This document shows, piece after piece, positions 1 to 14,541 of a stretch of DNA of 21,292 nucleotides (within the stretch, counting starts at the first letter, position 1; each line of letters opens with the position of its first letter). The stretch is from Bodo saltans (lineage: Eukaryota; Euglenozoa; Kinetoplastea; Eubodonida; Bodonidae). The translations under genes and the position numbers were made by a program. A model generated the notes under the pieces. It worked only from the letters and a program-made list of their open reading frames with translations. It was not told where the DNA came from and did no database searches. The DNA lies in assembly GCA_001460835.1 (NCBI GenBank), contig CYKH01000290.1, forward strand, positions 1 to 21,292, written 5' to 3'.

Positions 1-159
1 TATAGGAGCTGTCGTCGACCGAACCGCTCTTGCACGACATACCGTCGTGAGGCGTGGGACTCGGGCCACCCATTGTAAAGAGAAGGATATATAGGAGCTG
101 TCGTCGACCGAACCGCTCTTGCACGACATACCGTCGTGAGGCGTGGGACTCGGGCCACC
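1..159 (+). repeat. Two 70-bp direct repeats with 19-bp spacer at the element's 5' side
   Basis: Positions 1-70 and 90-159 are identical by eye (period 89 bp). Each unit holds a 6-bp hairpin, CACGAC/GTCGTG around a 5-nt loop (33-49 and 122-138), and a GUGG/CCAC hairpin further 3' (54-69). An outer pairing AGGAGC with GCTCTT is also possible. The spacer ends in a TATATA run (about 86-91) that could serve as a TATA-like box for the second unit. Repeated 5' units could be promoter repeats, part of the terminal repeat of a YR element, or a structured (possibly self-cleaving) RNA; none of these is shown. More units may lie upstream of the window. Confidence 0.75.
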
Positions 160-174
160 TATCAACCAGCGAGC

Positions 175-253: not shown

Positions 254-397
254 CGCTTGGTTGTATCCGTTCTCTGTTCTCTGTTCTCTGTGCTGCTGGT
301 TTTGGTTTCCCCTCAAGAGAGGGTACTCACAGGGTTCGCCGCGTGAAGGCAACCAGGCAGACTTTGAACCCCAGATGAAGAAATAACTCTGACTCAG
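254..397 (+). promoter_or_regulatory. Pyrimidine-rich leader with candidate splice acceptors
   Basis: Three tandem TCTCTGT heptamers (271-291) sit in a pyrimidine-rich stretch that continues to TTTCCCCTCAAG near 316. AG dinucleotides follow near 316, at 396-397 and at 417-418, the last two just before or inside the open part of ORF1. Such a tract is what a cis- or trans-splice acceptor needs, but no matching donor and upstream ATG exon can be seen in the window. The first ATG anywhere in the leader is at 375 and is followed at once by in-frame stops (384, 390). Confidence 0.3.
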
Positions 398-749
398 ACC
401 ATCTCACACGTGCTTCAGCTCCTTCAAGAACCCCAAGGATTCATCCATCATCGACACCACCCAGATCGAGCAAGCTTTCCAGCAGGTCTTCGAGCACACA
501 ACATGGCTCAACAATCAAGTAGTGCAGCTGCAGCAGGAGAAAGTTCCTCTCGAGAAACTTGCCGCATCCGTCCGTGAAGGCCTTGGGAAGATCAAGAGCC
601 AGGTAGGCCGCGCTCAACGCCTTGCCGTCCCCCAACCTTCCTACCGACCTCGGTCCCCTTCGCGCACCTCCGCCCCACGACGCGCATCCTCTGCGACTAC
701 TCGCTACCGTCGTCCCCGCGGTGGTGAAACCTCGGAGTCAAATTTTTAG
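393..749 (+). CDS. ORF1, Gag-like RNA-binding protein (118 codons, no ATG)
   Basis: This frame is open from just after a TGA at 390 to the TAG at 747-749. It lacks an ATG; the in-frame ATG at 375 is cut off by TAA (384) and TGA (390). Residues about 20-72 are rich in Glu, Gln, Leu and Val in a coiled-coil-like pattern (for example NNQVVQLQQEKVPLEKL). Residues about 82-112 are rich in Arg, Pro, Ser and Tyr, typical of a disordered nucleic-acid-binding tail. No zinc knuckle is present. Position before Pol and the basic tail suggest Gag; VIPER ORF1 is likewise small. Expression would need splicing, a non-AUG start or an exon outside the window; alternatively the 5' end is damaged. The frame ends at a slippery site that links it to ORF2. 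Confidence 0.6.
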   Translation, partial: LRPSHTCFSSFKNPKDSSIIDTTQIEQAFQQVFEHTTWLNNQVVQLQQEKVPLEKLAASVREGLGKIKSQVGRAQRLAVPQPSYRPRSPSRTSAPRRASSATTRYRRPRGGETSESNF

Positions 750-775
750 CAAGTCCTGTCAGCATCCACCAGGAC
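740..775 (+). promoter_or_regulatory. -1 programmed ribosomal frameshift site (slippery heptamer plus stem-loop)
   Basis: Read in the ORF1 frame, the sequence is TCA AAT TTT TAG. The heptamer A AAT TTT (740-746) fits X XXY YYZ with X=A, Y=T, Z=T. Slipping back one base lets both tRNAs re-pair and continue at TTA (746) in the ORF2 frame, which is open from 728 on. A perfect 6-bp stem GTCCTG (753-758)/CAGGAC (770-775) with an 11-nt loop begins six bases downstream, the usual spacing. No clear pseudoknot partner for the loop was found. Heptamer, frame offset, adjacent stop, spacing and stem all agree. Confidence 0.8.
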
Positions 776-3700
776 GTTAATCAAAAAGTGATCAATCGAG
801 CATCGATCCCGCGTGTAGCATCGGCATGGCCAGCGGCACGTCTGGGTCCAGCGGCGTCGATTGGTCAGCAGCACTCGCACTCCCGCTCTCGCCCGGCTCT
901 CGACTCCGACTCCCGCGCACCACCAGACGCTTCCCCAGCAGCGCCCCCTCACGCAGGCGACGCACCTGGCTGCCTCTCCTCCGACGAGATCGACTTGATC
1001 CTCGGCACACACACCCTTCTCCCAGCTAATGCCTTCTGGCGACTTCACCAAGGCACGCTCGACCTCGAACACATCCGTCGTCGACTCCAGACCAACGGAT
1101 TCACCGTACTTCACACTCGGCACCACTGGCTTCTTCTGCGCATCTCTGGCACCCACATGCATGCCTACGACTCCGCGCAATCGAACCCTGTCGCCCGGGA
1201 CCTACACGTTCTTAGCCGCCAGCTTGGCATGACAGCGATGACACTTCACCCCTGTCCACAGCAGCTTCGTGGCACCAACGAATGCGGCCTCTTCACCATT
1301 TTGAACGGCCTGCTTCTTCTCCATGGTCGCGACATCCCGCCCCGCACTGACCGCGTCTCCTTAGCAGCGCTTCGTGCGGTCTTTCCCGACCCCGCTGAGA
1401 TCCTCCGACTCGGTTGCTCAGCCTACAAAATTGACGCCCCCACCACCATCGGCTGGCGTCATCAACCCTACGCGACTGGCGGCACCTCCCCAGTCGCGCT
1501 CAGTCATGACACCACTGTCCGCTCAGAAGCTCTCGACCGCCCCACACCCCCAACGCATCCCGCATACAGGCACGCCCCCTACGGTGGTGCTCGTCTCGGG
1601 TCGCCCCAACCGAGCCAACTTCGACCCGGCGGAATAGCGAACCCGATAAACGTTGACGAAACACTCACAAGCAGCGACGACCACACCTCGGTGGACACGG
1701 CCCCGGGACCACACCTGGACGTGGTCGGGACCACACCGGCGCCAGCGCACGCAGTGCATCGCGTTGCAATACTCGGATACTCCGCGCAGGTCCAGCCCGT
1801 CCAAACGAGCACCCCGACGGTCGCACAGCAACGATTGTCGACAACCGCTACATCCCACGGGACACTCACGGAGACACGGTTAGAAGACACGACCACACGC
1901 GACGACGCGCTGTCTGAGCTGACGATTGCAGAGGAGCGATACGCCAACGCCCTGCGAGTCGCGGCCCACCACGACGGCCTTCAAGGGAGTGACCTGGATC
2001 ACCTCATCGCGATGGCCAAAGCCGAGGGTACGAATGACGTCAGTGTTCTCTCTGTGGTAGGGCGCCGCCCAGTACACCTTACACGCAACTATCTAAAACC
2101 AATTCACGTGGGTGCTAGCGACAGCGGGCATTACTTTTTACTCTACGTGGACAAACGCGGAGTGACCTACGTGTTCAATTCGATGCCCTCATTCCGCCCG
2201 CACGAGTCCCTTGAGGCGATCCGGACAATAACCGGATCGGACCCGAGCCGGGCGATAGACATTGGCCCACAGGGCACTGAGGAATGTGGATTCTGCGTCG
2301 TCAATGCTGCACGTGAGCTCCTGGGCGCAACATTCATGCTACGGGCCCCACCGGGTCACCTACGCGCCCGTTATGCGCCGGACCTCGTACAAGCCCGGCT
2401 CACCGACCTTGAGGCAGCACGTGCCGCCGTCGCATTGCTTGCCTCGCAAACTTTACACGATGAGCAACGCCCCGCCATCATTGCATCCGCGACTCCCGCA
2501 CTTCCTGCAATGGTCGACAGCCGGTTCGAGTCCATCCTCAAGACCTTAACCACCGGTCAGCGCATCCGTTGCGACTTCCGCGAGCGCACGGACATCGATG
2601 GTACCTCGCACGATATCCTTTCTTGGACAGGCAACGTCACCAAACCATGGAACCGATCTCGCCGCTGTGTCGAAGTTCTTTGGGATTCGGGCTTACCGTG
2701 CTTCTCCGGTCGGCGTCGAGCTGCACTTCCCGAAGCCGACCTTCCAGACCCTCTCTGGGAATACATCGCGCTCACGGCCGACGTCGCCCCCGATACACCC
2801 TCTCAACAGATCCCAGCGTCACTACCCGCGGCACCGCCAGCTCTGCCAGCTCCCACGTCCCCGCCTGTCTGTGTCGCCCCTGTCGCACCTAGAGATTCTC
2901 TGTTACCTACGGTACGGCACACGTCCACACAACCGCCACCTCATTTCAAGGATTGGTGGCTCACCCCGCATGCTTCGGTTCGCAGCATGCTTCAGAAAGC
3001 GGCTTCCAAAGCCAACGCGCTCGTCTGTATTACCATCCTACCGGACGCCGGCACACGGCACGACGATGACATCGCCATTACAGTCATAGGACGAGCTCGC
3101 GTCGAAGGATCCGACACCCTGCTGCAAATAACACACCAGAGGTGCGCGTCATGCGGCTGCTTTGGCCAAGCCGATATGCTGGACAACGCTAAACCTCTTC
3201 TCATCCCTATGCCCGCATCCCACTGCACTTATTATTCGGCCCGCGTTATTGATTCCCTGCCTCCATCCGAATGCAGCTGCCAAGCAGACGACGCCCTCGA
3301 CTGCGAAACCTCCCATGGAGTAGCCTCCGCGGACTTTATCAGAGAACTGGCGCCAGATGCCTCTCTCGGCTTTTCCACCAAGGACAACTTGCGAGGCGAA
3401 GTCTGCGCACGATGGTTCATCCACCATCAGAAACCTGCTTTCGTACACACTCTTGCTTGGAAGCAACTTCATCCCAGTACTCGTGCAGGGCATATCCGGT
3501 GGCTCAACAGGCTTAAAGAGATGCCTAGACGCTACCACACAGCACCTCTAGGTAGTGCCGCCGTGCAGTTGGTTCTCGAAGAGGCACGTGACAACCACTG
3601 GACCTCATGGTCCACAATCGCCTCAGCTCTTTCGACAATCGCATCGGCGCTACGACACCTTCCGCAATACACGTCGAACACACAAGCCATCGATCTCAGC

Positions 3701-6382
3701 ACAGACGTCTCATTTGCCTCTGCCGCAAAAAGAGCACAGCATCTTGCACGAGTTACGAAAGGTCACACCCAAGCGGAAGCACTCACCGTTGAGCAATACG
3801 ACGCAGCGTTATCAGCATGCAAGCAACCAGCCGTTCGACTCTTCTTGATCCTGGCATGGGCGTTCGCCGGCAGAGCAGGCGATATCCGCCAAATACGCGG
3901 GCACGACGTTAGCCTCAAGGAACCCCCTATAGGTTCGAGACAGATGCTCTCGGTCACATTCAGGCGAGGCAAAGGAGCCGCTTTCTGGGGGCCCTACACC
4001 ATAGCTACTATGGTTGACACATCCACCATGAAGGCCCTCCTCGACCATATTAGAGAACGCGGCAAAATAGTTGATCTCTTCACCGACGCTGAACAACGTA
4101 CTCTCAGCGGATTCATCCGTCAAGCCGGCGGCCATGACTTACGCAGCATACGCAGAGGCCGCCTTCAACATCTGGCAAATCGCGGGGCCTCCACCGAGGA
4201 ACTGCGACTGCTAAGCGGCCACAAACGCACAGATACTTTGCTCAGATACTTAGGCTGGGGTCTCTTCTCGTCGGATAGCAAATCAGCCGCAGAACGCCGG
4301 GACGTCCTCGACCTTCCCACGTCCCAGAACCCCACCGGAGGCGGATCAGAGGCGGACCCCCTCGCACCAGCACCACGCAAAATGGGCAAATACTCTGGCT
4401 ACTGCGGCTCACAAGGACGTCGAACACGAGCTCCTCCAGTCCCGTTCCGCACCCCCAAGTCGGAAGACCTGGGCATCACCCACGCGGACGCGGCTAACTG
4501 GCCCCTCAAAGCCAAGGACATTGCCACACTCGACTGGACTCGTGTCTCGCACGCCCTCGGCAGCAGCGCCAAAAGCAACGCCGCCCTCGGCAACCATCTC
4601 ATTCCCGCATCAGATTGGACACGCATCGACGACGCTCTCACGAATATACAAAAATGGTGCAGCGACGCGCCCCTTCGCGAGCACTCAGATGGACGGACTT
4701 TCGACGTTACGGAAATTCCCCATACCAAGATCTCACGAAAGGACTTCGACGTTCTGATGGGGAGCAAGAAGACCACACCTCTCCGTCCGTCCGACGTCAT
4801 TCGAGGGTGGTGCAACGGGTATCTCATACCCCAGCCCAAACGAGCGCAACGCAGACCCGTGTGGGAGCCGTGCGCCAACCGCTGGGAGCTGGCCGACAAG
4901 CCGGAAGCCTCCTACCCATCGCGTCGCGTACGGCGCTACCTTCGACGTCACAAGCTGGTTATGGATTTCGACTTCTCCCAATTCTTTGACCAGTTCCCGC
5001 TCAGCATCGCCTCTCAGGAGTTCTACGTATGCAAATATCTTATAGACGACGGCTCTACGGAGCTGGTAAAACTCACACGACTACCGATGGGAGTCACCTT
5101 CGCGCCGGCCATCGCCCAGACCCTTACGGACGTCCTCATCGCCCCCCTCCTCCAAATCCCCGACATCCGTGTATTCACTATGATCGATAACGTTCGCATC
5201 GCGGCCGCATCCACACCAGCCCTAAAGCACGCCGTCCATCTTTTCCTCGACAGGTGCCGCGCTGCAGGTGTCATCCTCAACGAGCAAGAAGACACGGCAG
5301 GCAACTCCATCGCGATCGACGTCACCGACGACAAGGCTCTCGAACAGTGGGCCCGCACGCCAAAGATCTTCCTGGGAGAGTTACTTAACCCAGTGTCAGG
5401 GAGCATAAAAAACGCACCCAAGAACTTGCAGAAGCTCCTGGCCGCGTGGCTCCGTATCAGCTCCGCGGGTCTACCCGCGACACCCCAAGCGGCCACATCC
5501 TCGACGTCACCGCGTACGGCGAACACCTCTCCGGTCACACTACGTCATCTTATCTCCGTGATATCCCTCATCTTCTGGATGATCCACACACACGACGTTC
5601 ACTTATCGTCGGTTCACTCGCTCCTTCAGAGCTACAGCAAGCTCTGCACACGCGCATCAATCACAGGCTACGACTCGCTCGTCGAATACCTAGACCCCAA
5701 CCTGGCGCACACCATTCGCGAGTGGGTCGACAAGCTACGCGTATTAGACGACGAGGCAAGCCCGGGGTCCCCCATACCCGTCGAACCCGCTCCACCTAAC
5801 CTGACAGACGACCACTATGACATCGTCATCAATTCGGACGCTTGCCGCCTCGGCTGGGCGGCCTTTGTCACTCGGCGTCTCGCCGGAGAACAATACCTCC
5901 TCAAGCAGCGTTGGCGCGCCGGTTCCCTCACACGATTCGACCTCAGCACAGTATCAGAACCCGTCGCACTGGTCCGCGCTCTGTGCTGGGTTCGCGAGCA
6001 ACCCTGGTACACTCAATCGCTTCGCGTCCTCTGCATCACAGACCACGCCGCGCTTGCCACCGGCCAACGACGTTGGTGGGACCAGCAATCTGGGTTCTCT
6101 CTGAACCCTTACCTGAATGAGGCCTTTCGCCTCATCAATGAGATGGATGCAATTGTCTGTTTCATCGACGGTAGTTTAAACCCCGCAGACTCGCCCTCGC
6201 GCAGCTCGACGTTAGGCGTTTGTGGGGCGCCCCTCACCGCCACCATGTGCACTGGCCAAGCCCACTTGGTCCCGCCGCTGGCCATGCTAGACTACCCACT
6301 CCCGCTCGCCTCGTCCGCAGATGGGGCTCGGCTAGGGCGATGGTCTTCATCGACAATTACAATGCCCAAGATGATGGGCTAA
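746..6382 (+). CDS. ORF2, Pol polyprotein: two Ulp1-like proteases, tyrosine recombinase, RT, RNase H
   Basis: The frame is open from 728 to TAA at 6380-6382. Its first in-frame ATG (1157) lies inside the first protease, so entry by -1 frameshift at 746 is likely. Residues are counted from the GTG codon at 788. Residues 80-180: C48/adenain-like protease with H113, D128, Q159 and C166 (NECGLF). Residues 415-515: second such domain with H448, N464, Q495 and C500 (EECGF). Residues 577-660: Tudor/SH3-like pattern (WTGNV, VEVLWDSG, LPEADL). Residues 786-831: Cys cluster (CASCGC, SECSC). Residues 865-1170: tyrosine recombinase with R1029, K1062, H1116-x-x-R1119, H1145 and Y1154, all present. Residues 1385-1500: RT with D1395 (DFSQFFDQFP), LPMGVTFAP and MIDN (D1467), where YxDD is usual. 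Residues 1678-1806: RNase H with D1684, E1724, D1752 and D1801. No frameshift or stop interrupts it, so it is young or active. The N464 and IDN changes are the only atypical catalytic positions. Confidence 0.93.
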   Translation, partial: LASPVSIHQDVNQKVINRASIPRVASAWPAARLGPAASIGQQHSHSRSRPALDSDSRAPPDASPAAPPHAGDAPGCLSSDEIDLILGTHTLLPANAFWRLHQGTLDLEHIRRRLQTNGFTVLHTRHHWLLLRISGTHMHAYDSAQSNPVARDLHVLSRQLGMTAMTLHPCPQQLRGTNECGLFTILNGLLLLHGRDIPPRTDRVSLAALRAVFPDPAEILRLGCSAYKIDAPTTIGWRHQPYATGGTSPVALSHDTTVRSEALDRPTPPTHPAYRHAPYGGARLGSPQPSQLRPGGIANPINVDETLTSSDDHTSVDTAPGPHLDVVGTTPAPAHAVHRVAILGYSAQVQPVQTSTPTVAQQRLSTTATSHGTLTETRLEDTTTRDDALSELTIAEERYANALRVAAHHDGLQGSDLDHLIAMAKAEGTNDVSVLSVVGRRPVHLTRNYLKPIHVGASDSGHYFLLYVDKRGVTYVFNSMPSFRPHESLEAIRTITGSDPSRAIDIGPQGTEECGFCVVNAARELLGATFMLRAPPGHLRARYAPDLVQARLTDLEAARAAVALLASQTLHDEQRPAIIASATPALPAMVDSRFESILKTLTTGQRIRCDFRERTDIDGTSHDILSWTGNVTKPWNRSRRCVEVLWDSGLPCFSGRRRAALPEADLPDPLWEYIALTADVAPDTPSQQIPASLPAAPPALPAPTSPPVCVAPVAPRDSLLPTVRHTSTQPPPHFKDWWLTPHASVRSMLQKAASKANALVCITILPDAGTRHDDDIAITVIGRARVEGSDTLLQITHQRCASCGCFGQADMLDNAKPLLIPMPASHCTYYSARVIDSLPPSECSCQADDALDCETSHGVASADFIRELAPDASLGFSTKDNLRGEVCARWFIHHQKPAFVHTLAWKQLHPSTRAGHIRWLNRLKEMPRRYHTAPLGSAAVQLVLEEARDNHWTSWSTIASALSTIASALRHLPQYTSNTQAIDLSTDVSFASAAKRAQHLARVTKGHTQAEALTVEQYDAALSACKQPAVRLFLILAWAFAGRAGDIRQIRGHDVSLKEPPIGSRQMLSVTFRRGKGAAFWGPYTIATMVDTSTMKALLDHIRERGKIVDLFTDAEQRTLSGFIRQAGGHDLRSIRRGRLQHLANRGASTEELRLLSGHKRTDTLLRYLGWGLFSSDSKSAAERRDVLDLPTSQNPTGGGSEADPLAPAPRKMGKYSGYCGSQGRRTRAPPVPFRTPKSEDLGITHADAANWPLKAKDIATLDWTRVSHALGSSAKSNAALGNHLIPASDWTRIDDALTNIQKWCSDAPLREHSDGRTFDVTEIPHTKISRKDFDVLMGSKKTTPLRPSDVIRGWCNGYLIPQPKRAQRRPVWEPCANRWELADKPEASYPSRRVRRYLRRHKLVMDFDFSQFFDQFPLSIASQEFYVCKYLIDDGSTELVKLTRLPMGVTFAPAIAQTLTDVLIAPLLQIPDIRVFTMIDNVRIAAASTPALKHAVHLFLDRCRAAGVILNEQEDTAGNSIAIDVTDDKALEQWARTPKIFLGELLNPVSGSIKNAPKNLQKLLAAWLRISSAGLPATPQAATSSTSPRTANTSPVTLRHLISVISLIFWMIHTHDVHLSSVHSLLQSYSKLCTRASITGYDSLVEYLDPNLAHTIREWVDKLRVLDDEASPGSPIPVEPAPPNLTDDHYDIVINSDACRLGWAAFVTRRLAGEQYLLKQRWRAGSLTRFDLSTVSEPVALVRALCWVREQPWYTQSLRVLCITDHAALATGQRRWWDQQSGFSLNPYLNEAFRLINEMDAIVCFIDGSLNPADSPSRSSTLGVCGAPLTATMCTGQAHLVPPLAMLDYPLPLASSADGARLGRWSSSTITMPKMMG

Positions 6383-6711: not shown

Positions 6712-7495
6712 AATGTGTACATGACTTCGGTGTGCTATCCTCTTTCCGCACTGAACCTGTAAGTGACAAGGGCTGCGACATGTTTGTTCATACGTTGGAA
6801 TCTTTGAATAAGTTTTTAGTTGTGCGTGCTACCCGCTGTACGCCGTGTCCATTTTTCCCTCGGTCGGGTTTAATGCCTCTGTGGTGCCAACGCGTTTCCA
6901 CTGCCGTGCAGTCGAGTTGGCCAGTTTCTCCTGTGAAATTCGCGGTGGGTATCTGAAAACCGACGCCTCAGATTCAAGTCGTTGCCGTCTCTTGACACCA
7001 GTGATTCACTCACAAATCGCAGCCATACGAATCAAGGTGATCTGCTGTGATGAAGGTTGCAGAATCAGAACACAATGAAATTTGCTGAACTGCTTCCGGC
7101 CACAGGCTGTTGTTCCACTTTTGACAAGAGGAACTGTTCTCGGACTATGAATGTTCCTCCTCTGCTTTTTCCTCTGATTATCTCCTTTGAAGCCACTTCA
7201 AAATTGTATTTCTCCGGTGGTGACACAAGCAAGCGTGCGGTCGCTTCCTTGTCTTGGCATTCATCCGTTGTCCTCCAAGAGTGCGTTCTCCCTGCAGGAG
7301 GAGGCCCGGATGCGGTGGCGGCGTAGACGGGCGCCCGCAAAGAATAAAAATCCGACGCACAGTGAGCAAATGTACGCATGCTTTTTATGAGCACTCACAC
7401 GCTTCGCTGATTTGCTCTGCCGCAAGCTGCAAAGATCCTATTTTCTCGAGTAAGAAACAATCCCCGGCAGGTCTGGGAGCAGCGCTTTACTGCAC
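6709..7495. repeat. Repeat family A, copy 1
   Basis: Positions 6709-6762 match 13955-14012, and about 7196-7495 match 14018-14545 with long near-identical blocks; the 430 bp between are missing from the 14.0-kb copy. Part of the middle (about 7110-7220) also matches the copy at 8.9 kb. On the - strand it contains a conserved reading frame (separate entry). Its left edge is the first sequence after the retrotransposon that is shared with another locus, so it marks an outer limit for the element's 3' end. Confidence 0.7.
7065..7394 (-). pseudogene. Family A coding remnant, unknown protein (about 109 codons)
   Basis: The - strand frame reads through THSWRTTDECQDKEAT, then LLVSPPEKYNFEV and GTFIVREQFLLSKVE to a stop at 7065. 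The 8.9-kb copy keeps QDKEATTRLLVSPLEKY and GTLIV-EQFLFSKVE, with gaps that keep the frame. The 14.0-kb copy keeps THSWRTTDECQDKEATTRL. Conserved frame across diverged copies shows this was protein-coding and under selection before decay. The family is not recognised. Surroundings suggest a retroelement protein (Gag region) rather than a host gene. The start is not assigned because the upstream frame is broken. Confidence 0.45.
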
Positions 7496-8869: not shown

Positions 8870-9055
8870 ACACACAAAGGAATGGCTCCACTTTTGAAAA
8901 GAGGAACTGTTCTACTATTAATGTTCCTCGTCTGCTTTCCTCTGATCTCATTGTATCCATTTTCAAAATTGTATCGTATTTCTCGAGTGGTGAAACAAGC
9001 AAGCGTGTGGTCGCCTCCTTGTCTTGGCTTTTGTCCGTATCTTGGCGTTGTGTAC
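8870..9055 (-). repeat. Repeat family A, copy 2 (coding remnant)
   Basis: The - strand frame gives QDKEATTRLLVSPLEKY followed by GTLIVEQFLFSKVE, clearly related to 7065-7394. Flanks differ from copy 1 on both sides. Only the C-terminal part of the family A protein is represented and no start is visible. Confidence 0.55.
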
Positions 9056-9507: not shown

Positions 9508-10283
9508 TCAACGTTTGCCTGGGCGCCGCGCCAGCTGTGGGCACTGGCGCTTCAGGTGGCCAGCCTGATGGCAGGGAAAGCACGTCATCGTGGATTGTAG
9601 CACCGTCTCGAACGCTTCGATGGATGATTCGGAAAACTGTGATGATGGGGCTGGAATGGAGTTTGGTCTCGGTTTTTTCCCTGGTGCCTTGACGATGGCT
9701 AACATGTTTCGCTCAGGGTCGACGTCTGCGTTTATTGAGTTAAGCCACGCTAGGTCGCGGGCGACGTCTTCTTGGACATCTGCGACGAGCTCGTACACCG
9801 CCAGGATTGCCTCCGCAGCGGTTGTTGTCATCCTGTAGTGTCCGTTACGACCGTCTCCTGTATAGCTCGTTCCGGCGACAAAAAACGCTTGTCGGTCTTG
9901 TATTGCGGAGTTCTTGTTATGCGATTCGTGTGCGCGGACCGCCAGTAAGGCCGGCAGGGGAATCCCTTCAGCTGTGCGGACGAGGAAACGGTTACTCACT
10001 TCATGTGCAAATACGGCGTCAAAGAGGGCCGGCCCCGCATCATCGATGCCGTACACGTGCCCCCACTTTTTCTGGCCGGAGGAAGCGGTTGGGTGTAGGC
10101 CTTGGCGATACAAAGAAACACCGCCCCCTAGAGTGCATTAGGGGGGAATTTGTGTGTGCTGTTGCGGTCCATTCCCAAATCATCTTTTCCACCAAGAATT
10201 TTTTGACGGACGTCGTGGTTCGCTGATTGAACTAGTAGCAGCAAAATCTCTCCATTCACACCGGCACTGGTGTCCGCCTTCAT
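9508..10283 (-). pseudogene. Gag-like protein with CCHC zinc knuckle, one frameshift
   Basis: An ATG at 10283 (MKADTSAGVNGEILLL) runs to a TAG near 10132. The adjacent frame then continues for about 200 codons to a stop at 9508; the switch lies at a C5/G5 run (about 10124-10128), a typical indel site. The C-terminus has CFPCHQAGHLKRQC, a perfect C-x2-C-x4-H-x4-C zinc knuckle as in retroelement Gag nucleocapsids, followed by a basic end. The segment ELVADVQEDVARDLAWL resembles IDVDVQEDVSW at about 20.6 kb. The protein would bind element RNA. It belongs to an element different from the intact one, whose ORF1 lacks a knuckle. Confidence 0.65.
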
Positions 10284-10889: not shown

Positions 10890-11300
10890 GGCTGAGCTTG
10901 AGCTTCAGCAAGCATCTCTCGCAACTTCGATGGCGAGCGTCGGCGTCTCTGGTCAGCAGCTTGTATTGCGGAGGAGAGCTGTAAATACAGCTCTTCTCTG
11001 TGTTCGTTCACTCTCCCAGTGCAATACTGGATTGGAGGTGCTGGGGATCCAGGGGGGCTGTGTGGACTGTGTAGGGACCTCGCACGCGGGCCCCCTTCCC
11101 GCGGCGGAAACGAACTGACAGCGAGCCGTCCTCCTGCAGGATCACGTCCTCCTTCGCCAACTGCAGGATACATCCGACGCGTGCGGCTGTCGCCCAGGCC
11201 AATGATCGCTGCTGAGGTAAGGAGACACGTCTCCGTCGAGACCACCTTCCGTACCTCGGCGGGGGACACCGGGACGGGCTGCTCGCTTGATGGCGTCCAT
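10890..11300 (-). pseudogene. Decayed tyrosine recombinase related to the intact element's
   Basis: Three - strand pieces line up with residues about 995-1130 of the intact Pol. PVSPAEVRKVVSTETC matches the helix before the catalytic Arg. LAWATAARVGCILQL, then LSVRFRRGKGA and GPYT match LAWAFAGRAGDIRQI, LSVTFRRGKGA and GPYT; catalytic Arg and Lys are kept. After another frame change, DQRRRRSPSKLREMLA may correspond to HDLRSIRRGRLQHLA, with His lost. Frame changes fall near 11200 and 11005, and the SGH...Y end is missing. It is inactive. Roughly 45% identity in the core puts it in the same clade but not the same family copy. It may belong to a decayed element that starts at the leader module near 13.9 kb. 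Confidence 0.72.
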
Positions 11301-13948: not shown

Positions 13949-14021
13949 TAGCTGTTTGAATGTGTACTTGGCTTCGGTTTATGCCATGCTCTTTCCGTAA
14001 GCACTGAACCTGCAAAATTGT

Positions 14022-14113
14022 ATTTCTCCAGTTGTGACACAAGCAAGCGTGTGGTCGCCTCCTTGTTATTTCTCCAGTGGTGACACAAGCAAGCGTGTGG
14101 TCGCCTCCTTGTC
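14022..14113. repeat. 46-bp tandem duplication inside family A copy 3
   Basis: Units 14022-14067 and 14068-14113 differ at very few positions (CCAGTTG against CCAGTGG). Copies 1 and 2 carry a single unit. Since 46 is not a multiple of three, the duplication breaks the - strand frame, so it occurred after the copy stopped being functional. Confidence 0.8.
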
Positions 14114-14174
14114 TTGGCATTCGTCCGTCGTCCTCCAAGAGTGCGTTCTCCCTGCGGGAGGAGGCCCGGATGCG

Positions 14175-14361
14175 CTCATCCTTGGTGACAACCAAAGATG
14201 AACACCAATGACTCCGTTGTGCTCCGACGGCGCTCCTGGGGGAAGTGGTGGAACACCGCGAGAGGGCCACGGCGGCACATACCCCCTCCCCCTCGGCTAT
14301 CTGGCAACGCGACTCCGGTGGCGAGGAGCGGGTCCGCTTCGCGCGGTCATCCTCACCCATG
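14175..14361. other. About 187-bp segment present only in family A copy 3
   Basis: Copy 1 reads straight through from GAGGCCCGGATGCG to the GGCGGCG-GTAGA-GGGCGCC part, whereas copy 3 has this extra, GC-rich segment between. No terminal inverted repeats are obvious. It is either an insertion here or a deletion in copy 1. On the - strand it codes a Pro-rich stretch (VPPLPPGAPSEHNG) in the frame of the neighbouring family A protein, which slightly favours a deletion in copy 1. Confidence 0.5.
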
Positions 14362-14541
14362 GGCGGCGGTGTAGATGGGCGCCAGCGAAGAATAAAAATT
14401 CGACGCACAGTAAGCATACGTGTACGCTGTGCTTTTATGAGCACTCACACACTTCGCTGATTGGCTCTCGCCGCCGCTAGCTGCAAGAACCTATCGAGGA
14501 GGAAGAAACAATCCCCAGCAGGTCTGGGAGCAGCTCTTCAC

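Follow-up and report, generated by a model that had tools for sequence, protein, structure and literature searches.

Expression of VIPER and TATE Elements

The tyrosine-recombinase (YR) retrotransposons VIPER and TATE of trypanosomatids have been published with separate open reading frames (ORFs), as far as the accessible parts of that literature go. In the T. cruzi VIPER consensus, three genes are described, with ORF1 at 169-1509, YR at 1510-2517, and reverse transcriptase/RNase H (RT/RH) at 1386-4214, and the portions of that paper at hand do not mention programmed frameshifting (PMC5146736). Computed from these coordinates, RT/RH of this element is at -1 relative to gag and overlaps it by 124 nt, and YR occupies gag's own frame behind the gag stop. 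For Bodo saltans, the available text of Ribeiro et al. 2019 gives two TATE copies as "one ORF with the three genes" and reports a single repeat-bearing copy, with repeats A1 and A2 on the 5′ side (73 bp, 99% identity) and B1 and B2 on the 3′ side (161 bp, 81%) (PMC6681497). Here, we analyze contig CYKH01000290.1 of assembly GCA_001460835.1 (21,292 nt; one whole contig, G000:C144, of the studied genome, referred to as the window), which carries a TATE-type YR retrotransposon of a kinetoplastid, most likely B. saltans. In this element a Gag-like frame (ORF1) precedes a long polyprotein frame (ORF2), and the junction between the two makes -1 Gag-Pol frameshifting likely in the family to which it belongs.

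The -1 sites of retroviral gag-pro-pol genes share several features with this junction, namely an X XXY YYZ heptamer in frame, a short spacer, a candidate downstream structure, and pol in the -1 frame. Unlike them, the window element has a YR in place of a DDE integrase, a putative cysteine protease in place of the aspartic one, and a weak stem. In luteoviruses and dianthoviruses, a UAG stands directly behind the heptamer of the -1 site. For barley yellow dwarf virus, the accessible part of a review describes frameshifting with a stem loop located 6 nt 3′ to the slippery site (PMC5009743). In the portions at hand of the open-access literature on VIPER, TATE, and DIRS elements, "frameshift", wherever the word appears, denotes mutations or the relation between YR and RT frames, not programmed Gag-Pol shifting.

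The gag/pol Junction of the Window Element

The original prediction had proposed a -1 Gag-Pol frameshift signal in this element, and its reading of the frames is confirmed. ORF1 is open from 393 to 746, ends in the codons TCA AAT TTT, and is closed by a UAG stop (747-749). ORF2 is open from 728 to 6379, preceded by a TGA (725-727) and lying exactly in the -1 frame relative to ORF1, and both frames are open together only over the 19 nt from 728 to 746. Within this overlap, the heptamer A AAT TTT (740-746) has the X XXY YYZ form in the 0 frame, adjoins the stop, and is the sole canonical heptamer of ORF1 in any phase. When codons were drawn from ORF1 (20,000 draws), an in-frame canonical heptamer fell in the overlap in 0.69% of the draws. 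The claim that ORF2 has no ATG before the middle of its first protease also holds: the first one, at 1157 (aa 144), falls behind the catalytic His proposed for candidate protease 1 and ahead of its Asp, and a start there would therefore deprive this protease of its His.

A coding signal is seen in both frames. Using a codon model trained on ORF2 from codon 300 onward, stretches were scored against off-frame and rest-of-window sequence. ORF1 450-599 scores like ORF2, being matched by 0/216 off-frame and 2/558 rest-of-window stretches, and codon statistics are uninformative for the Arg/Ser/Pro-rich tail at 600-746; ORF1 450-746 as a whole is matched by 1/210 and 36/552 stretches, respectively. 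The beginning of ORF2 behind the heptamer (746-970) is matched by 1/214 off-frame and 38/554 rest-of-window stretches, and its first part alone (746-862) by 11/218 and 66/558. The coding frame therefore changes between about 600 and 860, a range in which a -1 passage is possible only at 728-746.

These features suggest the following mechanism. The family would make a Gag-like protein, with the protease-recombinase-RT-RNase H polyprotein produced solely in fusion to Gag. Ribosomes that reach the end of gag with Asn-tRNA on AAU and Phe-tRNA on UUU would slip one base back on A AAU UUU, bypass the adjacent UAG, and continue as ...ESNF-LASPV.... The presumed rate of slipping would leave the majority of ribosomes to stop at UAG, yielding Gag in excess of Gag-Pol. 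Cleavage of the polyprotein, the task of the aspartic protease in retroviruses, may fall to the clan-CE-like cysteine protease, which is the first domain behind the shift site. With no gag ATG, the window copy itself has no AUG from which to make Gag-Pol, and the proposal thus concerns its family, whose intact copies would presumably start gag with an AUG.

VIPER-Like Copies in the Same Genome

Searches of the studied genome covered 934 contigs with 29.3 Mb (the available text of PMC4728078 puts the assembly at 39.9 Mb), and the match counts obtained are lower bounds. Long open frames are present on other contigs of this genome. Two of them, C431 and C337, carry copies that are called VIPER-like from their layout and from the VIPER report for B. 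saltans in the accessible part of PMC6681497, no VIPER protein having been compared. On the minus strand of C431, gag (L024 6699->5755) is followed by YR (5986->4958) and RT/RH (4884->3232); YR is at -1 relative to gag, and the only canonical heptamer of their 232-nt overlap is an in-frame A AAA AAC at C431:10805-10811 minus. The C337 copy (L037; gag 3710-4390, YR 4165-5028) again has YR at -1, with an overlap of 226 nt containing one in-frame A AAA AAC (C337:19335-19341) and three out-of-frame heptamers. The proteins of the two copies are 27-28% identical, and A AAA AAC stands 51 nt (C431) and 48 nt (C337) from the gag stop.

Conservation of each frame between C431 and C337 was evaluated with 5,000 shuffles per frame. 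Upstream of the heptamer, conservation is seen in the gag frame (p=0.0002); from the heptamer to the first YR ATG, it is seen in the YR frame (p=0.0004; WRKDLNVIQK/WKADVNHIQK). The control frames are not conserved, whether gag after the heptamer (p=0.52, or 0.73 when the frame is read on past the stop), the third frame (p=0.11), or YR before the heptamer (p=0.26). That conservation passes from one frame to the other at the heptamer, before YR has any ATG, is the signature expected of a Gag-YR fusion made by -1 shifting.

The VIPER-like copies thus share with the window element a gag followed by a YR in the -1 frame and an in-frame canonical heptamer. They differ in using A AAA AAC instead of A AAU UUU and in overlaps of 226-232 nt versus 19; moreover, RT is a separate ORF in C431, unlike in the window element, and the C337 contig ends before RT. 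T. cruzi VIPER differs from the window element in a YR that stays in gag's own frame; its RT/RH, however, is at -1 relative to gag, so the layout may be wider (coordinates as available in PMC5146736).

As a side observation, a 416-aa third frame overlies the C431 YR ORF (L024 minus, rc 1987-3234), and T TTA AAC occurs in the YR frame at rc 2236. This is possibly a second -1 shift, but a chance occurrence is likely in an overlap of 970 nt. The C337 YR ORF has no heptamer in the YR frame.

Weighing the Alternatives

Several observations weigh against frameshifting. A point overlooked in the original prediction is that ORF1, too, lacks an ATG, across all of its 118 codons, and its first 56 nt (393-448) lie inside a 74-bp dispersed unit. 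The 6-bp stem predicted 6 nt downstream of the heptamer is present (753-758/770-775) but weak: folding of 747-800 gives z -1.9, and 7/75 54-nt windows of ORF2 fold as low, the site itself counted. Downstream folds at the VIPER-like sites are ordinary (z -0.27 in C431, 0.24 in C337). Permuting just the six codons of the window overlap produces a heptamer in 6.5% of cases, and the chance of a heptamer by codon permutation is 0.29 for C431 and 0.13 for C337 (0.12 and 0.05 by draws from the ORF). The C337 copy is probably incomplete, because its YR matches only residues 38-225 of the 343 of C431's. C434 has a recombinase that begins with an ATG and is at +1 relative to an ORF resembling gag by position; that ORF contains no in-frame heptamer, and this is a real counter-case because the recombinase frame is open over 283 aa. 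Besides C434, an in-frame heptamer is missing from the CCHC gag on the window's minus strand, a fragment with no adjoining recombinase frame, and is not kept in the dead C558 copy, which has stops and 65% DNA identity to C337. In a survey of ORF overlaps at twelve loci (239,056 bases, both strands summed), heptamers occurred in 7/42 -1 pairs, the three element junctions included, and in 6/44 +1 pairs. Finally, no second TATE gag/pol junction was found in the same genome, IMG/VR, or GTDB.

A -1 relation together with an in-frame heptamer is present in three of the six junctions examined (window element, C431, and C337), a count that leaves out C13 (the contig starts inside RT), C594 (upstream N run), C500, and the second YR fragment of C431. 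When the survey is confined to overlaps of up to 30 nt, a heptamer is found in one of six, that of the window element. In the same genome, the first 591 aa of ORF2, which include the proteases, match only themselves, and a search with DNA 600-1000 returned only itself. ORF1 has one weak match in C452 (34%, E 1.58), aside from the 74-bp unit in C402 and C558. The C-terminal half of ORF2 finds a 55-aa recombinase fragment on the window's minus strand at 58% identity, as well as matches of 29-37% in C431, C434, C13, and C594. No relatives were confirmed in IMG/VR or GTDB with single-protein queries, which are able to find close relatives only, and the second published single-ORF TATE copy may lie outside the contigs searched.

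RNA structure lends weak support to frameshifting. Over the 134 nt between 747 and 880, folding reaches z = -2.9 (0/200 shuffles as good) and is equaled by 4/74 ORF2 windows, its own window counted; at 90 nt, the fold at the shift site is average among ORF2 windows (40/74). The longer stem in the 134-nt fold lies beyond the reach of a classical stimulator. A pseudoknot adjoining the heptamer was considered and rejected, the best complement to the loop being 5 bp.

The junction would be explained differently if the T run at 743-747 had long ago gained or lost bases (an indel), gag and pol having once formed one frame that is broken in this copy. Homopolymer runs are indel hot spots, and this run is one of 18 runs of 5 or more in 393-6382. 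A copy already without a gag start would be consistent with such damage, as would the publication of B. saltans TATE copies as a single ORF holding all three genes (PMC6681497, as far as available). There is, however, no further break in 1884 codons, and the supposed one coincides exactly with an in-frame canonical heptamer; a single indel is also insufficient to account for the long -1 overlaps of the VIPER-like relatives (226 and 232 nt), with their heptamers and frame-specific conservation. We regard an indel as unlikely, though it is the main rival reading. A sequencing error in the 5-T run is unlikely if the genome is that of B. saltans, given the Illumina assembly at 170x, as reported in the accessible part of PMC4728078.

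ORF1 could also be a chance open frame and basic low-complexity DNA beside a 5′-truncated pol, ORF2 then having a non-AUG start or having lost its start. The ORF1 frame up to its stop has a single ATG, at 375, behind which the stops at 384 and 390 close the frame. The right edge of the 74-bp unit, at about 448, is where sequence unique to the window starts, and the copies of this unit in C558 and C402 border unrelated DNA on the far side. As the dispersed unit ends there and ORF1 has no ATG, the element copy appears to be 5′-truncated at about 448/449, which would leave the C-terminal part of Gag. Neither the 74-bp unit nor a neighboring 81-bp unit, both of which occur by themselves on other contigs, has an Rfam match, and the fold of 291-448 is unremarkable. 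A chance origin of ORF1 would agree with the missing ATG, the dispersed repeat at 393-448, the lack of coding signal at 600-746, the 36/552 rest-of-window stretches matching 450-746, and the absence of similarity between ORF1 and the three gags compared (shuffle p 0.12-0.36). It would leave unexplained why 450-599 scores like ORF2 and why a heptamer stands in frame at the end of ORF1, and we consider it improbable.

Separate translation of ORF2 from a near-cognate start or by re-initiation after the ORF1 stop, with no frameshift, seems very improbable, for although C434 has an ATG for its recombinase, which uses a different frame, and the published trypanosomatid VIPER and TATE elements have separate ORFs (in the parts available), no ATG occurs from 728 to 1157 and conservation of the YR frame in C431 and C337 starts upstream of the first ATG. 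The -1 Gag-Pol frameshift thus stands as the best reading, with the same arrangement in C431 and C337, but it is tempered by the missing ORF1 start codon and the weak stem.

Organization and Identity of the Element

The features of the element and its surroundings are collected in Table 1. The candidate catalytic residues of protease 1 follow what we take to be the clan CE (SENP/Ulp1) pattern. A single-sequence structure model of low confidence (predicted local distance difference test, pLDDT, 45) has SseL, SENP1/2/5, and poxvirus I7L as top PDB matches, none with E<=0.001; no significant Pfam match and no match in a PDB sequence search were obtained. Motifs and model together point weakly to a clan CE cysteine protease, which protease 1 probably is. 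The structure model of protease 2 (pLDDT 37) was unusable and discarded. The recombinase has all of its catalytic residues, with a Pfam score of 19.9 bits (6.6e-4), below the cut-off of 27.1. It lies upstream of RT, as shown by the RVT_1 match and the motif order, RNase H being recognized by motif only. The RT box of the window element (5180-5194) reads MIDNV, and those of two other aligned YR elements read YLDNL and CVDNV (L024, L023), so that all three have Asn at the second Asp of YxDD.

Table 1. Annotated features of the window (positions in contig CYKH01000290.1).
Feature	Position	Strand	Remarks
Two direct copies of a 73-bp repeat	1-73, 90-162 (1..162)	.	99% identical; matches published repeat A
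81-bp dispersed unit	291..371	.	Copies 81-82% identical in C302 and C355
74-bp dispersed unit	375..448	.	Solo copy in C558 (99%); copy at C402 edge (100%)
ORF1, Gag-like C-terminal part	449..746	+	Assigned by position and composition; Arg/Ser/Pro-rich tail
ORF2	728..6382	+	Protease 1 - protease 2 - tyrosine recombinase - RT - RNase H
Slippery heptamer A AAU UUU	740..746	+	In frame with ORF1; inside overlap
UAG stop of ORF1	747..749	+	Directly 3′ of heptamer
6-bp hairpin, 753-758/770-775	753..775	+	11-nt loop, -6.5 kcal/mol, 6-nt spacer after heptamer
Longer stem within fold of 134 nt from 747	789..867	+	Beyond reach of classical stimulator
Protease 1, candidate clan CE (SENP/Ulp1-like)	965..1420, boundaries approximate	+	His 1124, Asp 1169, Gln 1259, Cys 1283
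Protease-2-like motif (H...N...Q...C)	2126..2290	+	Asn replaces Asp; motif reading
Tyrosine recombinase	3728..4300, boundaries approximate	+	R, HxxR, H, Y all present
Reverse transcriptase	4940..5284	+	Pfam RVT_1 4.7e-10; box MIDNV
RNase H motifs	5831..6202	+	Read by eye

In addition to the tandem repeats at its 5′ end, the window holds a second repeat pair at 7114-7268/8887-9038 (161 columns, 81.4% identity). Because both repeat pairs agree in length and identity with the published ones, the window element is probably the repeat-bearing TATE copy of PMC6681497, judging from the available text of that paper. The label TATE rather than VIPER rests on this match of repeat lengths and identities, TATE and VIPER reference proteins not having been compared. 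The original prediction had compared the element with VIPER-type elements, described with separate ORFs; the match is instead to TATE, which the accessible text describes in B. saltans as one ORF. Like the published copy, the window element combines these repeats with a single long ORF carrying YR and RT/RH. Split direct repeats in the order A1 - B1 A2 B2 were not found in the window: the A copies are tandem at 1-162, and the B-like repeats are dispersed. The contig begins at base 1, so part of the repeat layout may be missing.

The sections on TATE in PMC6681497, in the text available, describe one ORF with three genes, with no ORF1 in another frame and no slippery site. Those sections do not mention proteases, and the word "protease" appears nowhere in the main text at hand. 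The "Gag-like" part of the published single ORF may correspond to the protease region of ORF2.

The eL21 protein of this genome scores 254-278 bits against five distinct PDB sequences and 140 bits against the next match. These five we take to be from T. brucei, Leishmania, and T. cruzi ribosomes, and the host is accordingly assigned to the kinetoplastids. No match was obtained with a spliced-leader pattern of the T. cruzi type, which is uninformative because spliced-leader exons differ between genera.

Repeat B, in print a TATE end, occurs in the window at 7114-7490 and 8887-9038, with further copies at 14010-14541 (including about 14010-14174); with these extra copies at 14 kb, it has the appearance of an ordinary dispersed repeat. 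The minus strand carries remnants of a further YR element at 9508-10137 and 11047-11214. Its gag remnant (209 aa) has a weak CCHC-knuckle match, and the YR fragment identical at 58% to the ORF2 recombinase is 46% identical to a fragment in C431.

Implications for VIPER and TATE

In the portions at hand of the literature, expression of the recombinase and RT of VIPER and TATE is described in terms of separate ORFs or one ORF, with no mechanism. It is conceivable, and put forward here only tentatively, that VIPER and TATE as a group rely on -1 shifting to produce their recombinase or polyprotein fused to Gag, the clan-CE protease of TATE replacing the retroviral aspartic protease. If this were true for both, the Gag-Pol strategy would not be tied to long terminal repeat (LTR) elements and DDE integrases. 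A common -1 shift site would provide a mechanism that sets the ratio of Gag to enzyme, and would link DIRS-order elements to retrovirus-like Gag-Pol expression. For the B. saltans copies themselves, such a site may alter what has been labelled Gag.

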